Origin: Hyphomicrobiales bacterium
GTDB lineage: Bacteria > Pseudomonadota > Alphaproteobacteria > Rhizobiales > Beijerinckiaceae
Assembly: GCA_930633525.1 (NCBI GenBank)
Contig: CAKNFP010000002.1
Span: 1,488,001 to 1,552,000 of the forward strand
DNA: 64,000 nt
Direction: 5' to 3'
The notes under the pieces were generated by a model. It had not been told where the DNA came from. It ran no database searches and saw only the letters and a list, made by a program, of their open reading frames with translations. The position numbers and the translations under genes were made by a program. Of this stretch, positions 13,707-24,900 are shown piece by piece. Numbering within the stretch: the first letter of the stretch is position 1; each line of letters starts with the position of its first letter.

Positions 13707-14531
13707 TTATAGGAGAAAGGGCAAGAGTTCCTTTTCCAGGCGGGTCGCCTCAGTCTTCAGTCTTGCAACAATTGCGCTCCGTCGCTCGCCCTGAAGCCGG
13801 GGTGATACAGCCGCTACGCTAAGCGCCGCAACGGGCTTGCCGTGCTTACCATATATCGGGACGCCGATGCCGCTCATGCCCGGCATGACTTGGCCATCGA
13901 TCGCGGAATAGCCGCTTGCCTGTGCTGTCAGCATCAGTTCGCGGAGCGACTCCCCATCAATTTGAAGAGTGGAAAACCTGGCACGATGCGTCGTGATGAT
14001 CCGGTCGATTTCATCGTCCCCCAAGAAGGCCAAAATGGCTATCCCGCCGGTGTTCGTCCCCAGCAGCCTGCGTTCGCCGACGCTCAGCGTAAGCGTCTTG
14101 ATAGGGTAGCTCCCTTCAGCGCGCGCAAAGCACACCGCCTCATCTCCTCGGCGAACCATGAAATAGACCGTATCTTCGGTTTCGTCAGCGACTCGCTGCG
14201 CATAGGGCTTCACGCGTTGGGCGAGTTCGAAGCGCGCGCTCGCTGCAGTCGACCACGCGAGGATGCGGTCGCCCAGAAAAAAGCGCGCTGAATCGCCATC
14301 GAACGCAGCGAGCCCCTGTGCCGTCAGGCCTGCGAGGCAGCGATGTGTAACCGTCTTGCTGAGGCCTGTGCGCCGTACGACGTCGACAAGACGGGCCCCT
14401 TCGGCAGCCGCCTCCGCGAGCACGTCCAGCACCAGAGTCATTCGCTCGATGTTCTGATGGTGCTTCGGGTCTCCCGAGGCAGCCTTCTCGTCGGCGTCGA
14501 AAGGTCCCGAGGCTGGGCGAGTTCGTTTCAT
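13707..14531 (-). CDS. IclR-family transcriptional regulator
   Basis: The 274-residue protein has an N-terminal winged helix (IERMTLVLDVLAEAAAEGAR, then RRTGLSKTVTHRCLAGLTAQ) and an IclR effector domain (YAQRVADETEDTVYFMVRRG, VGERRLLGTNTGGIAILAFL, GYSAIDGQVMPGMSGIGVPI). The frame is open to 14612, but IclR proteins begin close to the HTH; ATG 14531 is preceded at a suitable distance by AAGGA. It is divergent from the catabolic gene cluster at 14687-22129, and a symmetric site GTTCCG/CGGAAC sits directly before the first gene of that cluster. It probably controls the cluster in response to a pathway substrate, as IclR regulators of aromatic and small-acid catabolism do. The effector is unknown. 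Confidence 0.85.
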   Translation of the reverse strand: MKRTRPASGPFDADEKAASGDPKHHQNIERMTLVLDVLAEAAAEGARLVDVVRRTGLSKTVTHRCLAGLTAQGLAAFDGDSARFFLGDRILAWSTAASARFELAQRVKPYAQRVADETEDTVYFMVRRGDEAVCFARAEGSYPIKTLTLSVGERRLLGTNTGGIAILAFLGDDEIDRIITTHRARFSTLQIDGESLRELMLTAQASGYSAIDGQVMPGMSGIGVPIYGKHGKPVAALSVAAVSPRLQGERRSAIVARLKTEATRLEKELLPFLL

Positions 14532-14652
14532 CGTCACCGCGTCCTTGGCAACCATGCCGATCGTCTTGGCCATCTTGGATGCCTTTGCAGTCTGCCGGCG
14601 AAAGCTTGACATCGCCGAGCAAGCTCTGCAATGTTCCGATTAACATAACATT

Positions 14653-14671
14653 AGTTCCGTTTATCGGAACT
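14653..14671. promoter_or_regulatory. Palindrome AGTTCCG-n5-CGGAACT, candidate IclR operator
   Basis: Arms AGTTCCG (14653-14659) and CGGAACT (14665-14671) are exact inverted copies around TTTAT. A further single half-site GTTCCGATTA begins at 14633. The palindrome ends 2 bp before the GGAGG ribosome-binding site of the gene starting at 14687, so a bound protein would block that gene directly. The adjacent divergent IclR gene is the obvious candidate. Function is inferred from symmetry and location. Confidence 0.65.
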
Positions 14672-14686
14672 TTATGGAGGAGTCAA

Positions 14687-15511
14687 GTGGGCGTGCCTGG
14701 TATCGTCATTGCCGACACCGTGACCAAGCTCGGAGCGGATGCTGCCGGGCAGGTCGCAATAGCAGCGTCTCATGCCGGGATCTATGCCGCGCATGTCGCG
14801 CTCGAGGCTAAGGTGGCTGGCGTGGTGCTCAACGACGCCGGCATCGGCCTCGACGAGGCGGGTATCGCCGGTCTCGGCTACCTGGACACCTTCAGCGTGC
14901 CGGCCGCGGCGATCGACTTTCGCAGCGCGCGCATTGGTGACGGAGATGACAGCGCAGCGCGCGGCATCATCTCCAGGCACAATGCGGCGGCAGCCGAGCT
15001 CGGTGTGCGCGTCGGCATGACCGCGAGGCAAGCTGCGGAGCATATGCGCGCCGCGCCGCGTCGATCCCGCGTGTTGTCGGCCCATCCGGAGGAGGCTCGG
15101 CTCGCGCTGACTGTGGCCGGTGCACAGCGCCCCGTGTGGCTTCTCGATTCAGCCTCTTTGATCGCCGAGGGCGATGTCGGCGCTGTCGTCGTCACGGGCT
15201 CCCACGGCGGCCTGCTTGGCGGCAAAGCGGCCACGGCCGCAAAAGTGGACGTTTTTGCCGCCGTGTACAACGATGCCGGCATTGGGGCAGACCGAGCTGG
15301 TGTATCGCGCCTGCCCGCCCTCGATGCTCGCGGCATTGCCGCCGCCACGGTCGCGGCCAGCTCGGCCCGCATCGGCGATGCCCGCTCGGCCTACGAGACC
15401 GGGCGTCTCTCCTTAGTCAACGCAACTGCCGCAAGGCTCGGCGCGCAATCCGGAATGACCACGCGCGCTTTCGTCGAACTCGTCTCCCGTATCCCGTCAC
15501 AAGAGGCCTGA
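14687..15511 (+). CDS. Unrecognised protein with two repeated halves, first gene of the ThDP/TRAP cluster
   Basis: The 274-residue protein begins at GTG 14687, 7 bp after a strong GGAGGAG ribosome-binding site. No family could be named. It contains two copies of a domain of roughly 115-130 residues. Half one carries AASHAGIYAAHVALEAK, VVLNDAGIGLDEAGIAGLGY, SARIGDGDD and AAAELGVRVGMTARQAAEHM. Half two carries VTGSHGGLLGGKAATAAK, AVYNDAGIGADRAGVSRLPA, SARIGDARSAYETG and AARLGAQSGMTTRAFVELV. The repeated signature is SHxG, NDAGIG(L/A)DxAG, SARIGD and GM(T)xR. No signal peptide or membrane segment is seen, so it should be cytoplasmic. The gene ends 2 bp before the ThDP enzyme gene, implying close functional linkage. 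It could be a hydrolase or a partner subunit; neither can be shown here. Confidence 0.8.
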   Translation: MGVPGIVIADTVTKLGADAAGQVAIAASHAGIYAAHVALEAKVAGVVLNDAGIGLDEAGIAGLGYLDTFSVPAAAIDFRSARIGDGDDSAARGIISRHNAAAAELGVRVGMTARQAAEHMRAAPRRSRVLSAHPEEARLALTVAGAQRPVWLLDSASLIAEGDVGAVVVTGSHGGLLGGKAATAAKVDVFAAVYNDAGIGADRAGVSRLPALDARGIAAATVAASSARIGDARSAYETGRLSLVNATAARLGAQSGMTTRAFVELVSRIPSQEA

Positions 15512-15513
15512 CC

Positions 15514-17274
15514 ATGTCCGAGAACGCCGGCGCCGCGCCGTCGAACACCAAGATCGAGATGTCCGGGGGCGAAGCTATCGCCCGTATCTTTCAGGCTTTC
15601 AAAGCCGGTCCGATCTTCGGCATGGGCGGATTCCAGACACTGCCGTTCTACGATGCCACCCGCCGTCTCGGCATGCCGCACCACCTGATCAACGACGAGC
15701 GCGCTGCGGTTTTCGTCGCGGACGCCTATTCCAAGGCCTCCGGTGGGCGTGTCGGCCTCGCCGACGCGACCCTCGGCCCGGGTGCGACCAACCTGGTGAC
15801 GGGCCTTGTCGAGGCGCTCAACGCCGGCACGCCTATGGTTGTCATCGTCGGCGACACCAACCGCGACCATTCCTGGAAGAACATGACCCAGGAAAGCCGC
15901 CAGATCGATATCCTGCGCCCGGCCTGCAAGGAGATCATCCGTGTCGAGCGCATTCACCGCATTCCGGAACTGCTGCGCCGCGCCTTCGCGGTGGCGACCA
16001 CAGGGCGACCGGGGCCGGTCGTGGTGGACGTGCCGGAAGACATCACCCACGACACCTACGCGTTCGATGCCGCGGACTTCGTGGTCAATCCGGCGCATGA
16101 GAGCGCCCCGGCCCTGCGCTGCCGCCCCGATGCGGACGATCTCGCCAAGGCAGCTGCGCTACTCGCCGGCGCCCGCCGTCCTCTGATCCTGGCCGGCGGC
16201 GGCGTCCACCTGTCCGGCGCCAACGCGGCGCTCGCCGCCTTCGCCCAGGCCTTCAACATCCCCGTCGCGCATACCTTGACCGGCAAGGGCGCCATCGCCT
16301 GCACCGATCCGTTGAGCGCCGGCCTCTTCGGCCGCTATGACCGCATTGCCAACACCTTGATCGACGAGGCCGACGTGCTTCTCGTCGTCGGCTGCAAGCT
16401 CGGCGAAATCGCGACCAAGCGCTACACCGTGCCTGGCCCTGGCAAGGTTATCATCCACCTCGATAACGTCGCCGAGGAATTCGGCCGTACGCTGTCGCCG
16501 GACCTGGCCCTGTGGGGCGACGCGCGCGCCGGCATCCTCGATCTGCACGCGGCGCTGGCCGCGCAGGCGGCCGACATACACGACCGCCTCGCGGCCTACG
16601 CGGCCGAAGTTCCCGCGCGCATGGCCCGCTGGCGCGAGGAGGTGAAGGAACGGCTCTATTCGCAGGAGACGCCGATCAACATGGCGCGGCTCCTGACTGA
16701 GATCAACGCCGTCCTGCCCGCCGACGGCTTCCTGATGGCCGACGGTGGCTTCGCGGCCCACTGGGGCGGCCTTCTGTTCGACACCAAGCAGCCGGGGCGC
16801 AGCTTCGTGCCGGACCGCGGCTTTGCCTCGATCGGCTACGGGCTGCCCGGCGCCATGGGCGCGGCCCTCGCGGCTCCCGGCCGCGCGGTCCTCAGCCTCA
16901 CCGGTGACGGTGGCTTCAACATGATGCTGGGCGAACTCGAAACAGCCCGACGCCTCAACCTCAAGTTCACGGTCATTATCGTGAACAACGCCGCGTCCGG
17001 CTACATCAAGGCCCTGCAGCATCTCGTCTACGGCCCCGGGGGCTATCAGGCGTCCGATCTGGCCGAGACCAACTACGCTAAAGTGGCCGAGGCCATGGGC
17101 TGCAACGGAATTCGTGTGGAGCAGCCCGACGACATGGCGGCAGCTCTGAAACAGGCTCTCGCCAACGATGGCCCGACGGTGCTCGACGTCGTCGTTACGC
17201 GCGATCCAGCCAAGATGCTGCCCGGCGTCGACAACCGCGCCGCCAAGTTCAAAAAGGGCGACCGCGTCGCCTGA
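15514..17274 (+). CDS. ThDP-dependent enzyme, acetolactate synthase-like superfamily
   Basis: The 586-residue cytoplasmic protein has the three-domain layout of acetohydroxyacid synthases and related carboligases or decarboxylases. The N-terminal PYR domain includes the cofactor-activating Glu62 in LINDERAAVFVADAYSKASG. The central domain covers about residues 205-340, with GARRPLILAGGGVHLSGANA. The C-terminal PP domain has the ThDP/Mg motif GDGGFN at 464-469 followed about 27 residues later by IVNNAASGY. It does not look like sulfoacetaldehyde acetyltransferase or benzoylformate decarboxylase in its N-terminal motif FGMGGFQTLPFYDATRRLG, so the substrate is open. It is translated just after the repeated-half protein and before a TRAP transporter, which suggests catabolism of an imported 2-oxo acid or a compound yielding one. 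Confidence 0.87.
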   Translation: MSENAGAAPSNTKIEMSGGEAIARIFQAFKAGPIFGMGGFQTLPFYDATRRLGMPHHLINDERAAVFVADAYSKASGGRVGLADATLGPGATNLVTGLVEALNAGTPMVVIVGDTNRDHSWKNMTQESRQIDILRPACKEIIRVERIHRIPELLRRAFAVATTGRPGPVVVDVPEDITHDTYAFDAADFVVNPAHESAPALRCRPDADDLAKAAALLAGARRPLILAGGGVHLSGANAALAAFAQAFNIPVAHTLTGKGAIACTDPLSAGLFGRYDRIANTLIDEADVLLVVGCKLGEIATKRYTVPGPGKVIIHLDNVAEEFGRTLSPDLALWGDARAGILDLHAALAAQAADIHDRLAAYAAEVPARMARWREEVKERLYSQETPINMARLLTEINAVLPADGFLMADGGFAAHWGGLLFDTKQPGRSFVPDRGFASIGYGLPGAMGAALAAPGRAVLSLTGDGGFNMMLGELETARRLNLKFTVIIVNNAASGYIKALQHLVYGPGGYQASDLAETNYAKVAEAMGCNGIRVEQPDDMAAALKQALANDGPTVLDVVVTRDPAKMLPGVDNRAAKFKKGDRVA

Positions 17275-17363
17275 CAGATTGTTGAGCCGGCTGTCCCTCC
17301 GCACCGTGGCGGGGGACAGCTGAATGGCAAGTAACAGAAAAATCTCAGGGAGTATCCAACGCC

Positions 17364-18431
17364 ATGTCCAGCAAGTTTATCGGTCCCATCCTCCACCGCC
17401 GTGCGATTCTCGGCGGCGCTCTGGCGGGGGCTGCCGGCCTCATCGCGATGCCTCACGTCGCCCGCGCCCAGAGCTACAAGGCTGAATACAAGATGTCCGT
17501 GGTTGGCAATCGTCCGCTCGGCACATCGGAAGCAGCCTTCCGCTGGGCCGAACTCGTCGGCGAGCGCACGCAGGGCCGCGTCAATATCAAGGTCTATCCG
17601 GGATCCCAGCTCGTCGGCGGCGACCAGACGCGCGAACTCATCGCCATGCGCCAGGGCATCATCGACTGCACGGTGTCCTCGACCATCAATGTCGCAGCGC
17701 AGATCAAGGAGATGAATCTCTTCTCGCTGCCGTTCCTGATGCCGGATTCGGCCGCGTTCGACGCCCTCACTCAGTCCGGTGATGTGCGCACAGCCCTCGA
17801 TGCGGTCTTTCTGCGGCGCGATTCCGTGGCTCTCGCGTGGAGCGAGAACGGCTTCCGGCAGTTGTCCAACGCCCGTCGTGACGTGCGCAAGCCCGCCGAC
17901 ATGCACGGCCTCAAGATCCGCTACGCAGCGGGGCCGATCTTCGCCGACATCTTCACGGCGCTGGGCGCCAACCCCCTGCAGATGAGCTGGGCAGACCTTC
18001 AGCCGGCGCTCGCGACGGGCGCGGTCGACGGGCAGGAGACGCCCATCAACGTCTTCCTCCAGAGCAAGCTCGACGCCCTCGCGCAACGTCACCTCAGCGT
18101 TTGGAACTATGTGGCGGATGCCAATGTGTTCCAGTTCGGCAAGGCCGCCTTCGAGGGCTTCACGCCGGCCGATCGCGAGATCATTCGTGCGGCTGCCGCG
18201 CAGGCGGCCAGCGAGCACACCGCGTCGAGCCGTGCCGGTCTTGGCAATAACGGCGATCGCGCGTCGTTCGACGAGCTGGCCAAGCGCAACGTGACGGTTG
18301 CCGAACTGACCGAGAGCGAGAAGGCCGCGTTCCAGACAGCGACGCGTGCCGTGTTCGAGAAATGGTCGCCGCAAGTCGGCACGGATCTTGTTGCCAAGGC
18401 GGAAGCCGCGGTGGCGAAGCGGAACGGGTGA
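17364..18431 (+). CDS. TRAP transporter substrate-binding protein (DctP family)
   Basis: The 355-residue periplasmic receptor begins with a probable twin-arginine signal (HRRAILGGALAGAAGLIAMP, cleavage near ARAQ at residue 35). The DctP fold is shown by GTSEAAFRWAELVGERTQGR, VNIKVYPGSQLVGGDQTREL, ADMHGLKIRYAAGPIFADIF and ATGAVDGQETPINVFLQSKL. The conserved Arg that usually salt-bridges the carboxylate of the ligand is probably in KIRYAAG, so an organic acid ligand is likely. The membrane components follow directly (stop at 18431, next start 18436). Together with the ThDP enzyme, cyclase and SDR this receptor should supply the pathway's substrate. Confidence 0.9.
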   Translation: MSSKFIGPILHRRAILGGALAGAAGLIAMPHVARAQSYKAEYKMSVVGNRPLGTSEAAFRWAELVGERTQGRVNIKVYPGSQLVGGDQTRELIAMRQGIIDCTVSSTINVAAQIKEMNLFSLPFLMPDSAAFDALTQSGDVRTALDAVFLRRDSVALAWSENGFRQLSNARRDVRKPADMHGLKIRYAAGPIFADIFTALGANPLQMSWADLQPALATGAVDGQETPINVFLQSKLDALAQRHLSVWNYVADANVFQFGKAAFEGFTPADREIIRAAAAQAASEHTASSRAGLGNNGDRASFDELAKRNVTVAELTESEKAAFQTATRAVFEKWSPQVGTDLVAKAEAAVAKRNG

Positions 18432-18435
18432 TCCT

Positions 18436-18945
18436 GTGGCGGTGGATGTCGATCCCACGGAAGAGCGGACCTTGCCCAAGGCCCGCATTCCACTGAAGCT
18501 GGAAGAGATGGCGATGGCGGCGGGAATGGCGGCGATCGCCATGATCACCGGCATGAACGTGCTGACGCGCTACCTCACCGACATATCGCTCGCCTTTACC
18601 GAGGAATATTCCGTCCTGCTCATGGTGGTCGTCACCCTGATCGGCGCCGGCTACGCCGCGGCCAGAGGCAGCCATATCAGGATCACCTTCGTAACCGATC
18701 GGCTATCCGAGAACGGCCGGCGCATGGCCGAGATCGTCTCGACCAGCCTCCTCCTGGTCGTGTTCGTGCTGCTCGTCGTATATGGCGCGCAGCTCGCCTG
18801 GGATGACTACATCTTCGAAATCGAGACTCCGGGCCTCGGCCATCCGCAGTGGATCTACACCGCCTGCCTGCCGCTCTTCTCACTTGGCGTTGTGGCGCGG
18901 GCGGCCGGCCGGATCATCCGCCTGTACCGGGGAGAGAGCGCATGA
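18436..18945 (+). CDS. TRAP transporter small permease (DctQ family)
   Basis: The 169-residue membrane protein has four hydrophobic segments: AMAAGMAAIAMITGMNVLTR, SVLLMVVVTLIGAGYAAARG, TSLLLVVFVLLVVYGAQLAW and WIYTACLPLFSLGVVARAAG. The block YAAARGSHIRITFVTDRLSE is typical of DctQ. The GTG at 18436, four bases after the receptor stop, was chosen; an upstream in-frame ATG lies inside the receptor gene. The stop overlaps the next start (ATGA), showing translational coupling with the large permease. DctQ and DctM together form the sodium-driven membrane unit. Confidence 0.85.
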   Translation: MAVDVDPTEERTLPKARIPLKLEEMAMAAGMAAIAMITGMNVLTRYLTDISLAFTEEYSVLLMVVVTLIGAGYAAARGSHIRITFVTDRLSENGRRMAEIVSTSLLLVVFVLLVVYGAQLAWDDYIFEIETPGLGHPQWIYTACLPLFSLGVVARAAGRIIRLYRGESA

Positions 18946-20225
18946 CAGCGAGCATCCTGTTCACGACGTTCATCGTCATGCTGCTCGCCTCCGTGCCGAT
19001 TGGCGTGGCGCTCGGCCTCGCCGGCACGATCGCCGTACTGTTCGCAGGGCAGGGCCTCTTATCCCTGCCCACGAACGTCTATACTGGTATCGCCAAATAT
19101 CCGCTGATCGCCTTGCCTATGTTCGTGCTCGTTGGCTCGGTCTTCGACCGGACGGGCGTTGCGCTGCGGCTCGTCAACTTCGCCACGGCGCTTGTCGGTG
19201 CCGGGCGGGGCGCGCTCGCCTCGGTCTCGGTGCTGGTCGCCATGGTTATGGGCGGCATTTCGGGATCGAGCGCGGCGACTTCGGCGGCAGTCGGCCAGGT
19301 CGTGACCAAAAGCATGGTGCGCGATGGCTATCCGCGTCCCTTCATCGCCTCGACGGTGGCCGCCGCTGCGGCGACGGACATCCTCATCCCGCCATCGATC
19401 GCCTTCATCGTTTATGCCGTGCTTGTCCCGGGAGTTTCGGTTCCCGCGATCTTTGCGGCAGGCATGTTTCCCGGCATCCTTGCCGGACTTGCGATCATCG
19501 TGCCGATCGTGGCCATTTCCTTCATCCGCAACTACGGCGGCAAATCGCGAGGCGATGCGCGTCCAAGCGTCTGGCAGACCTTCAAGGAAGCGTTCTGGGG
19601 ACTGATGGCGCCGGTTGTCATCCTCGGCGGCATGCGCGTCGGGGCCTTCACGCCAACGGAGGCGGCCGTCGTCGCGGTATTCTATGGTCTGTTCATCGGC
19701 TTCTTCATCCATCGCACGCTGACCCTGAGGGATGTGTACGAGATGCTGGTGGAAGCCGGCGAACTCTCGGCGATCATCATGATCGTCGTCGCACTGGCGT
19801 CGATGTTCGCCTGGTCGACGGCGACGCTCGGGATCGTCGAGCCGATCGCGCAGGGCATCGTCAATTTCGGCCTCGGCGAACATGGCACGCTGGCACTGCT
19901 GATCGTTGCGATGATCATCATCGGGATGTTCATCGACGGTGTCTCGATCTACCTCATCCTGGTGCCGATCCTCATCCCCATCGCCAATGCGTTCGGCTGG
20001 GACCTGGTGTGGTTCGGCGTCATCATGACGATGAAGGTGGCTATCGGGCAGTTCACGCCGCCCCTGGCCGTCAACCTGATGGTCTCGTCGAAGATCGCCG
20101 GCGTACGCATGGAAGACACGATCCCGCATGTGGTGTGGATGATCCTCGCGATGTTCGTGTCGCTGTGCTGCGTCGTCGCATTCCCCGACATCGCTTTGTG
20201 GCTGCCGCGCGTGCTCGGCTACTGA
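18942..20225 (+). CDS. TRAP transporter large permease (DctM family)
   Basis: The 427-residue membrane protein has about 12 hydrophobic stretches. Family motifs include VPIGVALGLAGTIAVLFAGQ, MFVLVGSVFDRTGVALRLVN, GGISGSSAATSAAVGQVVTK, ILIPPSIAFIVYAVLVPGVS and IGQFTPPLAVNLMVSSKIAG. The start ATG (18942) overlaps the stop of the small permease. It is the transport subunit that moves the receptor-bound acid together with sodium. The complete receptor-small-large set in order makes this a functional-looking TRAP system. Confidence 0.92.
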   Translation: MTASILFTTFIVMLLASVPIGVALGLAGTIAVLFAGQGLLSLPTNVYTGIAKYPLIALPMFVLVGSVFDRTGVALRLVNFATALVGAGRGALASVSVLVAMVMGGISGSSAATSAAVGQVVTKSMVRDGYPRPFIASTVAAAAATDILIPPSIAFIVYAVLVPGVSVPAIFAAGMFPGILAGLAIIVPIVAISFIRNYGGKSRGDARPSVWQTFKEAFWGLMAPVVILGGMRVGAFTPTEAAVVAVFYGLFIGFFIHRTLTLRDVYEMLVEAGELSAIIMIVVALASMFAWSTATLGIVEPIAQGIVNFGLGEHGTLALLIVAMIIIGMFIDGVSIYLILVPILIPIANAFGWDLVWFGVIMTMKVAIGQFTPPLAVNLMVSSKIAGVRMEDTIPHVVWMILAMFVSLCCVVAFPDIALWLPRVLGY

Positions 20226-20238
20226 GGTATCTGTTGCG

Positions 20239-21249
20239 ATGAAACGCTGGAAGAACCGGCCCGAAGGGTCGAACTGGGGTGATTTCGGTGAGGATGACCA
20301 ACGCGGCCGCCTCAATCTGATCACCGCCGAGAAGGTGAGACAGGGTGCGGCGGAGGTGCGCGAGGGTCGCACCTTCTGTCTCAGCCTTCCGCTGGACTAT
20401 CCCGGCGGCAATGCTTTGGCGCCGCACCGCCAGCCGCCGCGAATCCAGCCCACCCAACGCCAAGACAGGCGCTTCTTCAACTACAGCTTCGCCAATGAAG
20501 GGCCCTATTGCGACTGCGGCAGCGATGACGCGGTGCTGATCTACACGCAATATTCCACGCAATGGGACAGCCTTGCTCATATCGGCCAGCATTTCGACGC
20601 CGATGGCGATGGCGTCGCGGAAGCGGTCTATTACAATGGCTTCCGGGCCGGAGAAGACGTGGTCGATCCCGACGCACGCGACACCGGCAGAACCTCGGCC
20701 CTTGGCGTCGATGCCATGGCGGCGGCCTGTGTCCAGGGGCGCGGCGTGCTGGTCGATCTCCGGCGGCATTTCGGTGACCAGCGCATCCTCGTTGGCTACG
20801 ACACGCTGATGCGCGTGCTCGACATCGATGGTGTGACCGTCGAGACGGGTGACATGCTATGCCTGCACACAGGACTTGCCGCGCTCGTTCTCGCCATGAA
20901 TCGCCAGCCCGACCCGGGGGTCCTGCACAACGCCTGCGCGGCGCTGGACGGCAGCGACCAGCGGCTTCTGCGCTGGATCACCGACAGCGGCATCGCGGCG
21001 CTCGTTGCCGACAACTATGCGGTAGAGGCTCTGCCCAAGCGTGTCTGCGACGATGGTGTGCGGCCGTTCGTGCCGCTGCACAATCATTGCCTTTTCAAGC
21101 TCGGCTTACCGCTGGGCGAGCTCTGGTACCTCAGCGAACTCGCTGCCTGGCTCGCTGCGAACGGACGCTCGCGCTTTCTCCTCACGGCCCCGCCATTGCG
21201 TCTGCCCGGCGCGGTAGGCTCGCCCGTCACGCCCATCGCGACGGTCTGA
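20239..21249 (+). CDS. Cyclase-family metal-dependent hydrolase (kynurenine formamidase/isatin hydrolase-like)
   Basis: The 336-residue protein of the PF04199 cyclase family carries the metal motif H-x-x-x-H-x-D as His114, His118 and Asp120 in SLAHIGQHFD. The N-terminal NWGDFGEDDQRGRLNLITAE resembles the larger subgroup that includes isatin hydrolase. Such enzymes open cyclic amides or hydrolyse formamides using Mn or Zn. There is no signal peptide, so it acts in the cytoplasm. The gene begins 13 bp after the large TRAP permease and ends 13 bp before the SDR gene. In context it may hydrolyse a ring amide or ester in the imported compound. Exact substrate unknown. Confidence 0.85.
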   Translation: MKRWKNRPEGSNWGDFGEDDQRGRLNLITAEKVRQGAAEVREGRTFCLSLPLDYPGGNALAPHRQPPRIQPTQRQDRRFFNYSFANEGPYCDCGSDDAVLIYTQYSTQWDSLAHIGQHFDADGDGVAEAVYYNGFRAGEDVVDPDARDTGRTSALGVDAMAAACVQGRGVLVDLRRHFGDQRILVGYDTLMRVLDIDGVTVETGDMLCLHTGLAALVLAMNRQPDPGVLHNACAALDGSDQRLLRWITDSGIAALVADNYAVEALPKRVCDDGVRPFVPLHNHCLFKLGLPLGELWYLSELAAWLAANGRSRFLLTAPPLRLPGAVGSPVTPIATV

Positions 21250-21262
21250 TCATCGGAGAAAC

Positions 21263-22129
21263 ATGACTATGACAGGTTCAACGTCGCAGGACGGCGACAA
21301 AGCTGCCGCGGCCGCCATTCCAGAGGGACCGGCAGGCCGCGGGCGACTGAAAGACAAGGTGGCGCTGGTCTTCGGCGCCGGATCGTCCGGCCCGGGCTGG
21401 GGCAACGGCAAGGCGGCTGCGGCGCTCTACGCGCGCGAAGGTGCCGTGGTCGTGGCCGTGGATATCAACGGCGACGCCGCTCGAGAAACAGCCGATATCA
21501 TCATCGCCGAAGGTGGCCGTTGCGAGGCTATGACAGCTGACGTGCGTCAGGCAGACAGCGTCGAGGCCGCAGTAGCACGCACCCAGGAGATATTCGGCCG
21601 GATCGATGTCCTGCACAATAATGTCGGCATCACGGAGATGAGCGATCTCGCGGAGACGACCGAGGAAAGCTGGCGCCGTGTCATCGATATCAATCTCACC
21701 GGCATATTTCTAACATGCCGCGCGGTCATACCGGCAATGGCCGCGCAGAAGTCCGGCGCTATCATCAATATTTCCTCGCTCGCGTCGATACAGGTGAACC
21801 AGTATCCGTATTTCTCCTATATGGCCGCGAAGTCCGGTGTGAACCAGTTCACACGTGGTCTTGCCGTCCAATACGCGTCGCAGGGCATCCGGGCCAATGC
21901 CATTCTGCCCGGTGTGATGGATACTCCGCTGATCTACAAGCAGATCGCCGGGAATTTTGCCGACCGTGAGGAGATGTTGCGCCGCCGGAACGCCGCCAGT
22001 CCGATGGGTCGTATGGGTGACGCATGGGATGTGGCGCAAGCGGCCGTGTTCCTTGCCTCGGACGAGGCAGACTACATTACGGGCGTATGTCTGCCCGTCG
22101 ATGGTGGGAAAAGCTGTGCTGGCCGTTGA
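21263..22129 (+). CDS. Short-chain dehydrogenase/reductase (SDR)
   Basis: The 288-residue Rossmann-fold oxidoreductase has the nucleotide-binding loop VALVFGAGSSGPGWGNGKAA, in which the usual TGxxxGxG reads GAGSSGPGWG. The NNVG motif is in VLHNNVGITEM. Catalytic Ser is in AIINISSLAS and Tyr-Lys in YFSYMAAKSG. Asp in VVAVDINGD at the end of strand 2 suggests NAD(H) rather than NADP(H). The unusually long loop between the first strand and helix (GSSGPGWGNG) occurs in a subset of alpha- and betaproteobacterial SDRs. It is the last gene of the cluster, probably oxidising a hydroxy intermediate. An IS6 transposase fragment follows 20 bp later. Confidence 0.9.
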   Translation: MTMTGSTSQDGDKAAAAAIPEGPAGRGRLKDKVALVFGAGSSGPGWGNGKAAAALYAREGAVVVAVDINGDAARETADIIIAEGGRCEAMTADVRQADSVEAAVARTQEIFGRIDVLHNNVGITEMSDLAETTEESWRRVIDINLTGIFLTCRAVIPAMAAQKSGAIINISSLASIQVNQYPYFSYMAAKSGVNQFTRGLAVQYASQGIRANAILPGVMDTPLIYKQIAGNFADREEMLRRRNAASPMGRMGDAWDVAQAAVFLASDEADYITGVCLPVDGGKSCAGR

Positions 22130-22372: not shown

Positions 22373-22987
22373 TCAGCCCGGCAGGGGGAGCAACGCGGCA
22401 ACGGGCCCGGTCGCTTGAATGCCGTGCGCCCACCGTGCGAGCGTCGGATAGGCAGCGCCGATGTCGGCGGCCTTCCAGTGGCTCACGATGACGGGGTAGA
22501 GGGCGATGTCGGCGATGCTCAGCTCGTCCGCCAGATAGGAGCTGGTGGCGAGCCGTGCCTCGCATACCGCGAGGAAGCGCGCCAGCCGCTCACGGAAAAA
22601 GCCACGTCCGGCGTCGTCGAGACCCGGCACGATGCCCTGGCGCGCCATGAAGCCGAGAGAGGCGGCGGCATTCACATCGGTCATCACCTGCATCAGCCAG
22701 TGCAGCGTCTCGTAGCGCTGCGGCCCCGCCTCGGGCAGGAAGCGCCCGGATTTCTCCGCCAAATAAAGCAGGATCGCGCCGGATTGGGCCAGCACCATTG
22801 GTGGCGATGCGCCGTGGTCGATGATGGCCGGAACGGCCGCGGCCGGGTTGATCGCCAGAAAGGCTGCAGATTTCTGCTCGCCGGCAGCCCGGTCGACGGG
22901 ATGTACGCGGTAGGGCAATTCCATCAATGCAGCCGCCAGCAGCACGCGCTGGCAATTGGCGGTGGGAGAGAAAAAAATCTCGATCAT
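22373..22987 (-). CDS. Glutathione S-transferase-like protein
   Basis: The 204-residue protein has an N-terminal thioredoxin-like domain (MIEIFFSPTANCQRVLLAAA; LAINPAAAVPAIIDHG with the cis-Pro; then VLAQSGAILLYLAEKSGRFL with the glutathione-binding Gln-Ser). An all-helical C-terminal domain contains SYLADELSIADIALYPVIVS. The NPAAAVPAI and SIADIALYP motifs are diagnostic of the bacterial beta/nu-type GST group (YfcG/YghU-like). It is divergent from the DUF2817 gene and has no operon partner. Likely function is glutathione conjugation or disulfide chemistry. Confidence 0.88.
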   Translation of the reverse strand: MIEIFFSPTANCQRVLLAAALMELPYRVHPVDRAAGEQKSAAFLAINPAAAVPAIIDHGASPPMVLAQSGAILLYLAEKSGRFLPEAGPQRYETLHWLMQVMTDVNAAASLGFMARQGIVPGLDDAGRGFFRERLARFLAVCEARLATSSYLADELSIADIALYPVIVSHWKAADIGAAYPTLARWAHGIQATGPVAALLPLPG

Positions 22988-23047: not shown

Positions 23048-24130
23048 ATGCAAAATGCGTTTCAGACCGAGTACACAAGTGCTGAGGCCGTGTTTGTCAC
23101 GGCAGCAGCGGCGGCCGGCGCAGCGATCGATCGCACCAGCCACACACTTCAAGGGCCACGGGGCGAGCGACTGGGCACGTTATGCGCATGGATCGGCCCC
23201 CGTGACGCCGCGCGGGTGTTCGTCACCATCAGTGGTGCGCATGGCGCGGAAGGCTATGCGGGCTCAGGCATGCAGGTGTCGTGGCTGCGCCAGATGGGCG
23301 AGCCGGCTCTGCCGCAGGACACGGCCGCGCTGTTCATCCACGGTATCAACCCGTTCGGCTTCGCCTGGCTTCGCCGCACCACCGAAGAAGGTGTGGACCT
23401 GAACCGGAATTTCGTCGATTTCAGCCAGAGCTTGCCGGACAACCCCGGATATCGCGAACTGGCCGATGCCTTTGTAACGCAAGCGATCGATGAGGCGAGC
23501 CTCGCCGCCGCCGAAGCGCGCTTCGCCGATTACAGAGCCCGCCATGGCGAGGCCGCCTATCTCGCCGCCCGCGGCGCCGGCCAATACTCCAATCCCGAGG
23601 GACTGTTCTATGGCGGCAACGGCCCGACCTGGGCACGGCGCACAAGCGAGTCGATCATCGACGCCTACGCGCTTGCCGGGCGCAAGGTCGCTGTGGTCGA
23701 TCTGCACACCGGCCTCGGCCCTTATGGCTACGGCGAATTGATCGCCGGCGCCGACCCGATGACGGAGACGGCGCAGCGGCTGGTGGACTGGTATGGGCCT
23801 ACCTTGACGCAGCCGGCACTGGGCGGGTCGGTGATCGTGCCGCAGCTCGGCATGGCCCATCTCGGCTGGCGTGCCCGGATTGGTGATGGCCTCACCTTTG
23901 CCTATCTGGAATTCGGCACACGCGTTCCCTTCTTCATGCAGCGCGCCCTGTGCCGCGACCACTGGCTACATGCCCAGGGCACGCCGGATTGGGACGATCC
24001 GCTGACGCGTGGGATCAAGGCCGACATGCTGCACGCCTATATGCCGGCCCGGCCCGACTGGCACGAGATGGTCGCCTTCCGCGCCTCGCAGGTGTTCGAC
24101 CAGGCGCTTGCCGGTCTCGCTGCCCAGTGA
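23048..24130 (+). CDS. DUF2817 family, zinc carboxypeptidase-like (M14-fold) hydrolase
   Basis: The 360-residue protein has the M14-type metal ligands His65 and Glu68 in SGAHGAEGYAG and His220 in VVDLHTGLGPYGY. The substrate-binding block VDLNRNFVDF (about 117-126) and a late acidic residue, Glu288 in AYLEFGT, are also present. These are the hallmarks of DUF2817, a family related to carboxypeptidases and to N-acyl amino acid or succinylglutamate deacylases. No signal peptide is visible. It lies between a divergent GST and a convergent maleate isomerase-like gene, so it is probably monocistronic. Likely activity is hydrolysis of a peptide or acyl amide; substrate unknown. Confidence 0.85.
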   Translation: MQNAFQTEYTSAEAVFVTAAAAAGAAIDRTSHTLQGPRGERLGTLCAWIGPRDAARVFVTISGAHGAEGYAGSGMQVSWLRQMGEPALPQDTAALFIHGINPFGFAWLRRTTEEGVDLNRNFVDFSQSLPDNPGYRELADAFVTQAIDEASLAAAEARFADYRARHGEAAYLAARGAGQYSNPEGLFYGGNGPTWARRTSESIIDAYALAGRKVAVVDLHTGLGPYGYGELIAGADPMTETAQRLVDWYGPTLTQPALGGSVIVPQLGMAHLGWRARIGDGLTFAYLEFGTRVPFFMQRALCRDHWLHAQGTPDWDDPLTRGIKADMLHAYMPARPDWHEMVAFRASQVFDQALAGLAAQ

Positions 24131-24153: not shown

Positions 24154-24900
24154 TCAGACCCGGGCGAAGACGCTGCCGAAACCTTCGAGCGGCGTCTCGA
24201 TGCCGCAAAGCCTGAGTGCTCGCCAATAGAGCGCGGCATTGATCGACAGGCAGGGCTTGCCGAGCCAGCGCTCGCCTTCGTCCATCAGCTGCGCGGTGGC
24301 GAGATTCGTGCCGACTTGCAGCACGGCATCGCAATGGCTTGCTGCAACATTTTTGATCGCGGCGATGATGCCGTCCTCAGGCAGGTCGGCGATGCTGAGG
24401 CCTGACTCGGCGTTCGTCGAATGGACCATGTCGACCGTGAAGCCCGCTTCGGTGAAGAAGCCGCGAATGCGCTCGTTCGCCGCTGGCTGAAACGGGGTGA
24501 TCAGGCCGAGGCGGCGGACATCGGGAAGATGGCTGAGCGCCGCCAGCATGGCATCGTCGGCGGTGACGAAGGGTACGCTGCATTGCTGCTGTAGCTCTTC
24601 GCGCAGTGCCCGCCCGCCCGCGACGCCCCGCCAGAAGCTCCCGATGGAAATGCCGAGGATGATGGCATTTGGGGCGACCGCCGACAGCCGCCGGATGGCA
24701 GCCGGCAGATCCGGCCCGATCTGTGCCACCACCTCGGCCTGGTTGGCATCGGAGGTCAGCGGTGTGTTCGGCATGTCGATCCGCGCGACATGATTGCTGA
24801 CCCCCCGTACGCGCATTGCCTCCATTTCGGGCTGTGCGCTCGAATTAAAGGCAGGAACCAGAATGCCGATGCGCGCAGCAGCGGCGGGGAAACGAGCCAT
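24154..24900 (-). CDS. Maleate isomerase/Asp-Glu racemase-superfamily protein, apparently without the catalytic cysteines
   Basis: The 248-residue protein starts MARFPAAAARIGILVPAFNS and has the two-domain layout of the maleate cis-trans isomerase/arylmalonate decarboxylase group (IGILVPAFNSSAQPEMEAMR, then RRLGLITPFQPAANERIRGF). In active members the first Cys lies in a YxCTSGS-like turn; here the segment reads ILGISIGSFW (about 81-90). The second Cys normally lies in SCTNL; here it is LQVGTNL (194-200). Both sites therefore seem to lack Cys. It is divergent from the branched-chain type ABC receptor, with shared putative GntR sites between, and so is probably co-regulated with that transporter. 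It may use other chemistry, bind rather than convert its ligand, or be misaligned here. Confidence 0.75.
   Translation of the reverse strand: MARFPAAAARIGILVPAFNSSAQPEMEAMRVRGVSNHVARIDMPNTPLTSDANQAEVVAQIGPDLPAAIRRLSAVAPNAIILGISIGSFWRGVAGGRALREELQQQCSVPFVTADDAMLAALSHLPDVRRLGLITPFQPAANERIRGFFTEAGFTVDMVHSTNAESGLSIADLPEDGIIAAIKNVAASHCDAVLQVGTNLATAQLMDEGERWLGKPCLSINAALYWRALRLCGIETPLEGFGSVFARV

Follow-up and report, generated by a model that had tools for sequence, protein, structure and literature searches.

A conserved tandem-domain protein beside a ThDP-dependent enzyme and a TRAP importer in a Hyphomicrobiales bacterium, with a possible role in the use of acetolactate-type acids

According to a review (PMC5812351), the receptor screening by Vetting et al. 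(2015) brought up 2-acetolactate as a new ligand of tripartite ATP-independent periplasmic (TRAP) transporters. RuBisCO-like proteins (RLPs) are described, in passages of PMC6302742, as acting on 3-oxo-isoapionate-4-phosphate. For the DUF1805 or YunC proteins there is a solved structure, TA1206 (1qw2). Here we present a locus in a 64,000-nucleotide stretch of the genome of a Hyphomicrobiales bacterium (contig CAKNFP010000002.1, positions 1,488,001 to 1,552,000; the whole stretch is called the window below), in which the gene of a two-domain protein, named X here, stands before those of a thiamine diphosphate (ThDP)-dependent enzyme and a TRAP importer. Our analysis shows that the link of X to both is conserved in other genomes. 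Tentatively, we read the locus as an IclR-controlled operon by which an acetolactate-type acid is taken up and degraded, meaning a 2-hydroxy-2-alkyl-3-oxo acid or one of its close isomers, with X acting before the carbon-carbon split. The parts of the locus are as follows.

13707..14612, minus strand: IclR-family regulator, divergent (Pfam IclR_C 4.9e-21, HTH_IclR 4.5e-9)
14654..14670, no strand: perfect palindrome of 17 bp between the IclR gene and X, candidate IclR operator
14687..15511, plus strand: protein X, an uncharacterised alpha/beta domain present twice in tandem
15514..17274, plus strand: ThDP-dependent enzyme, acetolactate-synthase-like (three TPP_enzyme Pfam domains)
17364..18431, plus strand: TRAP solute receptor DctP (Pfam DctP 8.8e-58; nearest solved relative 4p8b)
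18439..18945, plus strand: TRAP small permease DctQ (Pfam DctQ 4.5e-28; start codon provisional)
18939..20225, plus strand: TRAP large permease DctM (Pfam DctM 3.9e-93; TIGR00786 343.9 bits, above the cut-off of 268.45)
20239..21249, plus strand: cyclase-family hydrolase, accessory (Pfam Cyclase 2.3e-9)
21263..22129, plus strand: short-chain dehydrogenase/reductase (SDR; Pfam adh_short_C2 1.1e-63)

This agrees with the initial annotation, which had placed X 2 bp before the ThDP gene (X stops at 15511 and the ATG of the ThDP gene is at 15514) and, after it on the same strand, DctP, DctQ, DctM, the cyclase and the SDR, with the IclR gene divergent. The TRAP set is complete, with receptor, small and large permease.

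Protein X and its family

X has 274 residues and a GTG start, with GGAGGAG immediately upstream. The earlier suggestion that it is built from two copies of one domain is confirmed, since the halves are 37% identical across 121 columns (BLASTP E 1e-15) and both contain the NDAGIGxDxAG, SARIGD and GMTxR blocks; a Smith-Waterman alignment of the two scores 183, whereas 1000 shuffles averaged 41.3 (sd 7.5) and never exceeded 73. Comparison of the two half-profiles gave an hhalign probability of 99.9, and the structure prediction that had been proposed as a check gave a high-confidence model with pLDDT 91.8 and pTM 0.88. The copies span about residues 6-124 and 150-268, and the secondary structure prediction puts the SHGG and NDAG blocks at strand ends.

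The genomic setting of the family is covered by 64 X loci, comprising 24 genome contigs, 7 plasmid records and 33 further genome stretches including the window (L099); they are not independent, four being from Sneathiella and eight from one genus (g25), and L041, L048 and L075 are short stretches. Searched with the X profile, these loci yield 56 proteins with two domains and nine single-copy open reading frames (ORFs), two of the nine both in L098. The single-domain forms occur in a second order (L095, L096) and among the betaproteobacterial loci; in the window's order L097 has one, and perhaps L098 as well. Their existence suggests that the window's X is a fused dimer. In L098 (genome G206) the two X-domain ORFs are adjacent and in different frames, being either a split pair or a frameshift of the draft genome.

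On the whole, the family is large. A protein search gives at least 6386 relatives at E<=0.001 (7999 candidates scored), and a single-domain query at least 2703 among 3196 candidates; the 120 relatives of X among the matches listed are named 'hypothetical protein' or 'uncharacterized protein YunC (DUF1805 family)' in their sources. The initial annotation could not place X, and this stands: X reaches no curated family cut-off in Pfam or NCBIfam, no NCBIfam model matches it at E<=0.1, and its matches in Pfam are solely sub-threshold ones to DUF1805 and IMS, covering one short motif. No confident match to a characterised family was found, and literature searches turned up no published function.

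The nearest known family is DUF1805 (PF08827), but by score X falls short of it, the window protein reaching 26.2 bits against the Pfam gathering cut-off of 29.5 and a genome search with PF08827 giving 18.7 bits, also below it; among the 120 X homologues listed, precomputed Pfam domains place PF08827 on a part. Nor do the profiles of X and YunC match across the domain: hhalign gives a probability of 51.5 over 26 columns for the N half and 6.9 over 85 for the C half, with a YunC profile that is narrow (120 close relatives of one query), and aligns chiefly the terminal motif. The YunC sequence compared lacks the SHGG and NDAG blocks of X, and the YunC relatives listed are of about 100 residues with one domain, whereas X has two.

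Residue conservation was counted in 479 aligned X domains (129 single, 175 N halves and 175 C halves), those taken from the database searches being the best-listed relatives of the queries. Ser172 is kept in 475 of them, His173 in 471, Asp196 in 475, Asn245 in 478 and Arg228 in 449; His and Asp are kept in all 175 C halves, and His in 167 of the 175 N halves. Because these Ser, His, Asp, Arg and Asn residues are near-invariant and the blocks are placed at strand ends, they would form an active site rather than a scaffold. X represents a real, conserved and uncharacterised family within a recurrent gene module, and its members are probably enzymes.

Co-occurrence, gene neighbourhoods and a shared palindrome

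The co-occurrence of X with the ThDP enzyme, which the initial annotation had proposed to examine across genomes, is borne out in 297 genomes of the window's order (ThDP threshold E<=1e-150). X is present in 21 of the 22 genomes carrying the ThDP enzyme, G157 being the single one without it, against 30 of 297 overall (Fisher 3.8e-24); five weak X matches (G035, G049, G143, G171, G237; E 2e-4 to 8e-4) were excluded before the test, lowering the number from 35 to 30. By genus, X is found in 9 of 10 ThDP-carrying genera against 15 of 123 (Fisher 3.6e-9). The genome and genus lists were compiled by hand, and both P values overstate independence, as related genomes recur. In several g25 genomes X and the ThDP gene lie far apart (about 120 kb in G019) or on separate contigs; since the pair co-occurs even then, the association is more than linkage.

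Among the 64 X loci, window included, ThDP relatives (at least 45%) are seen in 27, E1 alpha in 27 and E1 beta in 24, with at least one of these in 36. The pyruvate dehydrogenase (PDH)-type E1 alpha/beta pair is therefore as frequent near X as the ThDP enzyme; the pairs from L074/L078 and L039 are PDH-like, below the NCBIfam cut-offs. The betaproteobacterial loci L033 and L035 do carry the ThDP enzyme. IclR relatives occur in 16 loci, TRAP subunits in 10-11, TctC in 11, and SDR relatives (at least 50%) in 7. The cyclase, whose ring opening had been proposed as a core step of the pathway, has a relative in just 4 loci, and that part of the proposal is not sustained.

Other genes were also observed beside X. 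A ring-opening amidohydrolase of the AtzD/TrzD type lies on the opposite strand, facing X, in eight loci, all of g25 (L072, L074-L078, L080, L084); it adjoins X in six and is separated from it by the ThDP gene in L080 and L084, and the E1 genes are on X's other side. L068 and L070 carry an aminotransferase-like protein beside X (76% mutually identical), in L068 directly between X and the ThDP gene.

Between the IclR gene and X in the window lies the palindrome GTTCCGTTTATCGGAAC, with arms GTTCCG/CGGAAC around TTTAT, the sole site in the genome at up to 2 mismatches. Its 15-bp core recurs identically at the IclR/X boundary in L039, L040, L044, L045 and L046 (12 bp of it falling within the start of the IclR match in L040), and with two mismatches, likewise at that boundary, in L086. 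These six are every site at up to 2 mismatches in 73 loci (1.25 Mb), scanned on one strand and with the window's own stretch left out; four of them are from Sneathiella, so that they amount to about three independent cases outside the window. With 20 shuffled palindromes in the same scan, no site came up for 13 and a single site for 5, and the remaining two yielded 5 and 7 sites. The number of sites alone is therefore not decisive; what counts is the shared IclR/X position. The best NCBIfam family of the IclR protein is PcaR/PcaU/PobR, at 103.6 bits below the cut-off of 284.75. We infer that the operon is under IclR control.

The flanking genes past the operon are a glutathione S-transferase-like protein immediately beyond it on the opposite strand (22373-22987, minus), a DUF2817 protein of unknown function (23048-24130, plus; Pfam E 7.3e-98) and an Asp/Glu-racemase-type protein (24154-24900, minus) related to EutA, at 75.7 bits, and to arylmalonate decarboxylase, at 63.9 bits, each score being below the cut-off.

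TRAP receptor, ThDP enzyme and the substrate class

The window's DctP is identical to 4p8b at 171 of 341 aligned residues (50%, E 8.6e-105), and its own ligand is predicted by similarity. The structure 4p8b is reportedly that of the Ralstonia eutropha receptor H16_A1328 with 2-acetolactate bound. Counting the window, 13 of the 75 distinct X loci have a receptor at least 50% identical to 4p8b, the gene in L047 being partial; in L117 and L118 of the second order the end of such a receptor gene (69% and 65% identity) is no more than about 100 bp from X. Because of this similarity the TRAP ligand is probably an acetolactate-type acid, which is more specific than the organic acid named in the initial annotation.

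The ThDP enzyme has the N, M and C domains of its class in Pfam (E 4.2e-24, 2.3e-33 and 5.8e-40). Its relatives in the PDB are acetohydroxy acid synthase (AHAS), BbmA and glyoxylate carboligase; it resembles the AHAS large subunit in its three TPP domains and overall alignment, and retains the Glu of plant AHAS at the aligned position. As an acetolactate synthase equivalog it was rejected, with 366.9 bits to TIGR00118 against a cut-off of 538.35, and it reaches no subfamily cut-off among the NCBIfam matches listed (25 of 56). At the positions of Arg377 and Trp574, substrate residues of AHAS, the alignment places Lys and Leu, so an ordinary biosynthetic AHAS is unlikely.

An unrelated gene context is seen in haloarchaea. 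X is directly followed by an RLP and a four-carbon acid sugar kinase in all five haloarchaeal plasmids found (L057, L058, L103, L104, L105; the RLP of L058 is annotated as a piece only), which are of several genera, with an SDR gene near in all five and TRAP and IclR genes in four; a transfer of the cluster between bacteria and archaea is suggested. In L090, X likewise stands with RLP and kinase genes, and a PGDH_C protein, presumably of the ApnO type, is beside it; PGDH_C proteins are present in four of these six stretches. OiaX and OiaK are the best NCBIfam families for all eight proteins of the pairs from L090, L057, L103 and L105. These genes resemble those of the D-apionate pathway (ApnO, OiaK, OiaX), of which X is not known to be a member. 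The compound 3-oxo-isoapionate is a hydroxylated acetolactate, and the receptor context and the OiaX/OiaK context, unrelated to each other, therefore indicate one chemical class.

Readings of the locus

Under the acetolactate reading, the TRAP system would import the acid; X, as a tandem-duplicated enzyme, would act on it or on the intermediate formed first, isomerisation or decarboxylation being the likeliest reactions; and the ThDP enzyme would then cleave the carbon-carbon bond adjoining the carbonyl, a step at which the PDH-like E1 pair would accompany or replace it in relatives. The SDR and the cyclase may supply peripheral steps that broaden the substrate range. Among isomerisation, racemisation and decarboxylation the first is slightly favoured, because a decarboxylating X would in part duplicate the step of OiaX. 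A bolder version, which we consider rather unlikely, is that X is a new enzyme class rearranging or decarboxylating acetohydroxy acids without reduction. As a cofactor-light acetohydroxy-acid mutase, racemase or decarboxylase built from a doubled DUF1805-like domain, it would serve the ThDP route with acetolactate-like acids and the OiaK/OiaX-like route with their hydroxylated, apiose-derived counterparts, in bacteria and haloarchaea.

Several results weigh against the acetolactate reading. For X itself, the searches brought up no activity, ligand or mutant. Neither ThDP nor E1 genes are seen in 28 of the 64 loci within the stretches covered, several of which belong to clusters for other acids (sugar-acid, aromatic, acyl-CoA). 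The window operon is without the E1 pair, the E1 beta relatives of its own genome being only 45-46% identical, and the SDR is not X-specific, with a relative (E<=1e-75) in 62 of the 297 genomes. At the level of the phylum X is a rare gene, present in 6 of 398 genomes (E<=1e-10). In 300 genomes of the second order, X is found in 26 (E<=1e-12), near full length in 7 and about half or less in 19, and the ThDP enzyme (E<=1e-150) in none. Finally, the OiaX scores of L090, L057, L103 and L105 (453.5, 515.6, 504.5 and 500.7 bits) and their OiaK scores (536.4, 441.4, 445.5 and 420.4) are all below the equivalog cut-off of 700, so the substrate there may differ; no ThDP enzyme is seen in L090 and the five plasmids. 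As to the second order, 4 of the 7 long-form loci have relatives of E1 alpha and beta (51-57%) close to X, E1 beta being directly before X in L113 and L116 and within about 4 kb in L115 and L118; the ThDP-dependent partner can therefore be an E1 pair instead.

Nearly as likely as the acetolactate reading is a generic accessory role of X in hydroxy- or oxo-acid catabolism, e.g. as an epimerase, tautomerase or lactonase, the ThDP link being one large pathway class among many, because X also sits in the other clusters just mentioned. For example, X is found with KdgD, a flavin mononucleotide (FMN)-dependent dehydrogenase and DUF1932 genes in L088, with KdgD-like and ABC-transporter-like genes in L089, with an enolase-superfamily gene in L091, and with acyl-CoA and aromatic genes on the plasmids L056, L060 and L061. 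Such a role accommodates the 28 loci lacking both ThDP and E1 genes; however, it sits less well with the very strong co-occurrence with one ThDP clade in one order, and with acetolactate-like acids being indicated by two unrelated cluster types.

A role of X as a non-catalytic partner of ThDP enzymes or as their small-molecule sensor, like that of the AHAS regulatory subunit, is improbable. The 2-bp spacing in the window, the adjoining E1 beta genes of L113 and L116 and the 36 of 64 loci with ThDP or E1 genes would fit, but the stretches read from haloarchaea and Rhodococcus carry no annotated ThDP-dependent enzyme, and the conserved polar residues of X look catalytic. Least probable is the pathway first envisaged, in which the cyclase would open an imported cyclic amide or lactone and thereby supply the ThDP enzyme, for although the window's cyclase is co-directional and tightly packed and AtzD/TrzD genes lie near X in eight loci, cyclase relatives are confined to 4 of 64 loci and the AtzD/TrzD genes to one genus, on the strand facing X. 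Of the single pathway drawn in the initial annotation, with X as a new enzyme or partner, the conserved linkage is retained, while ring opening is given up, as is X as a dedicated partner of the ThDP enzyme, because X also occurs without it.

Overall, the X family is widespread, and the genes around it confine the likely substrate to a small class of compounds, available commercially or by synthesis. This makes the family's function directly testable, which may also give a clue to DUF1805, and the acetolactate reading would also show how bacteria use acetolactate-like acids, an unexpected TRAP ligand in receptor screening.

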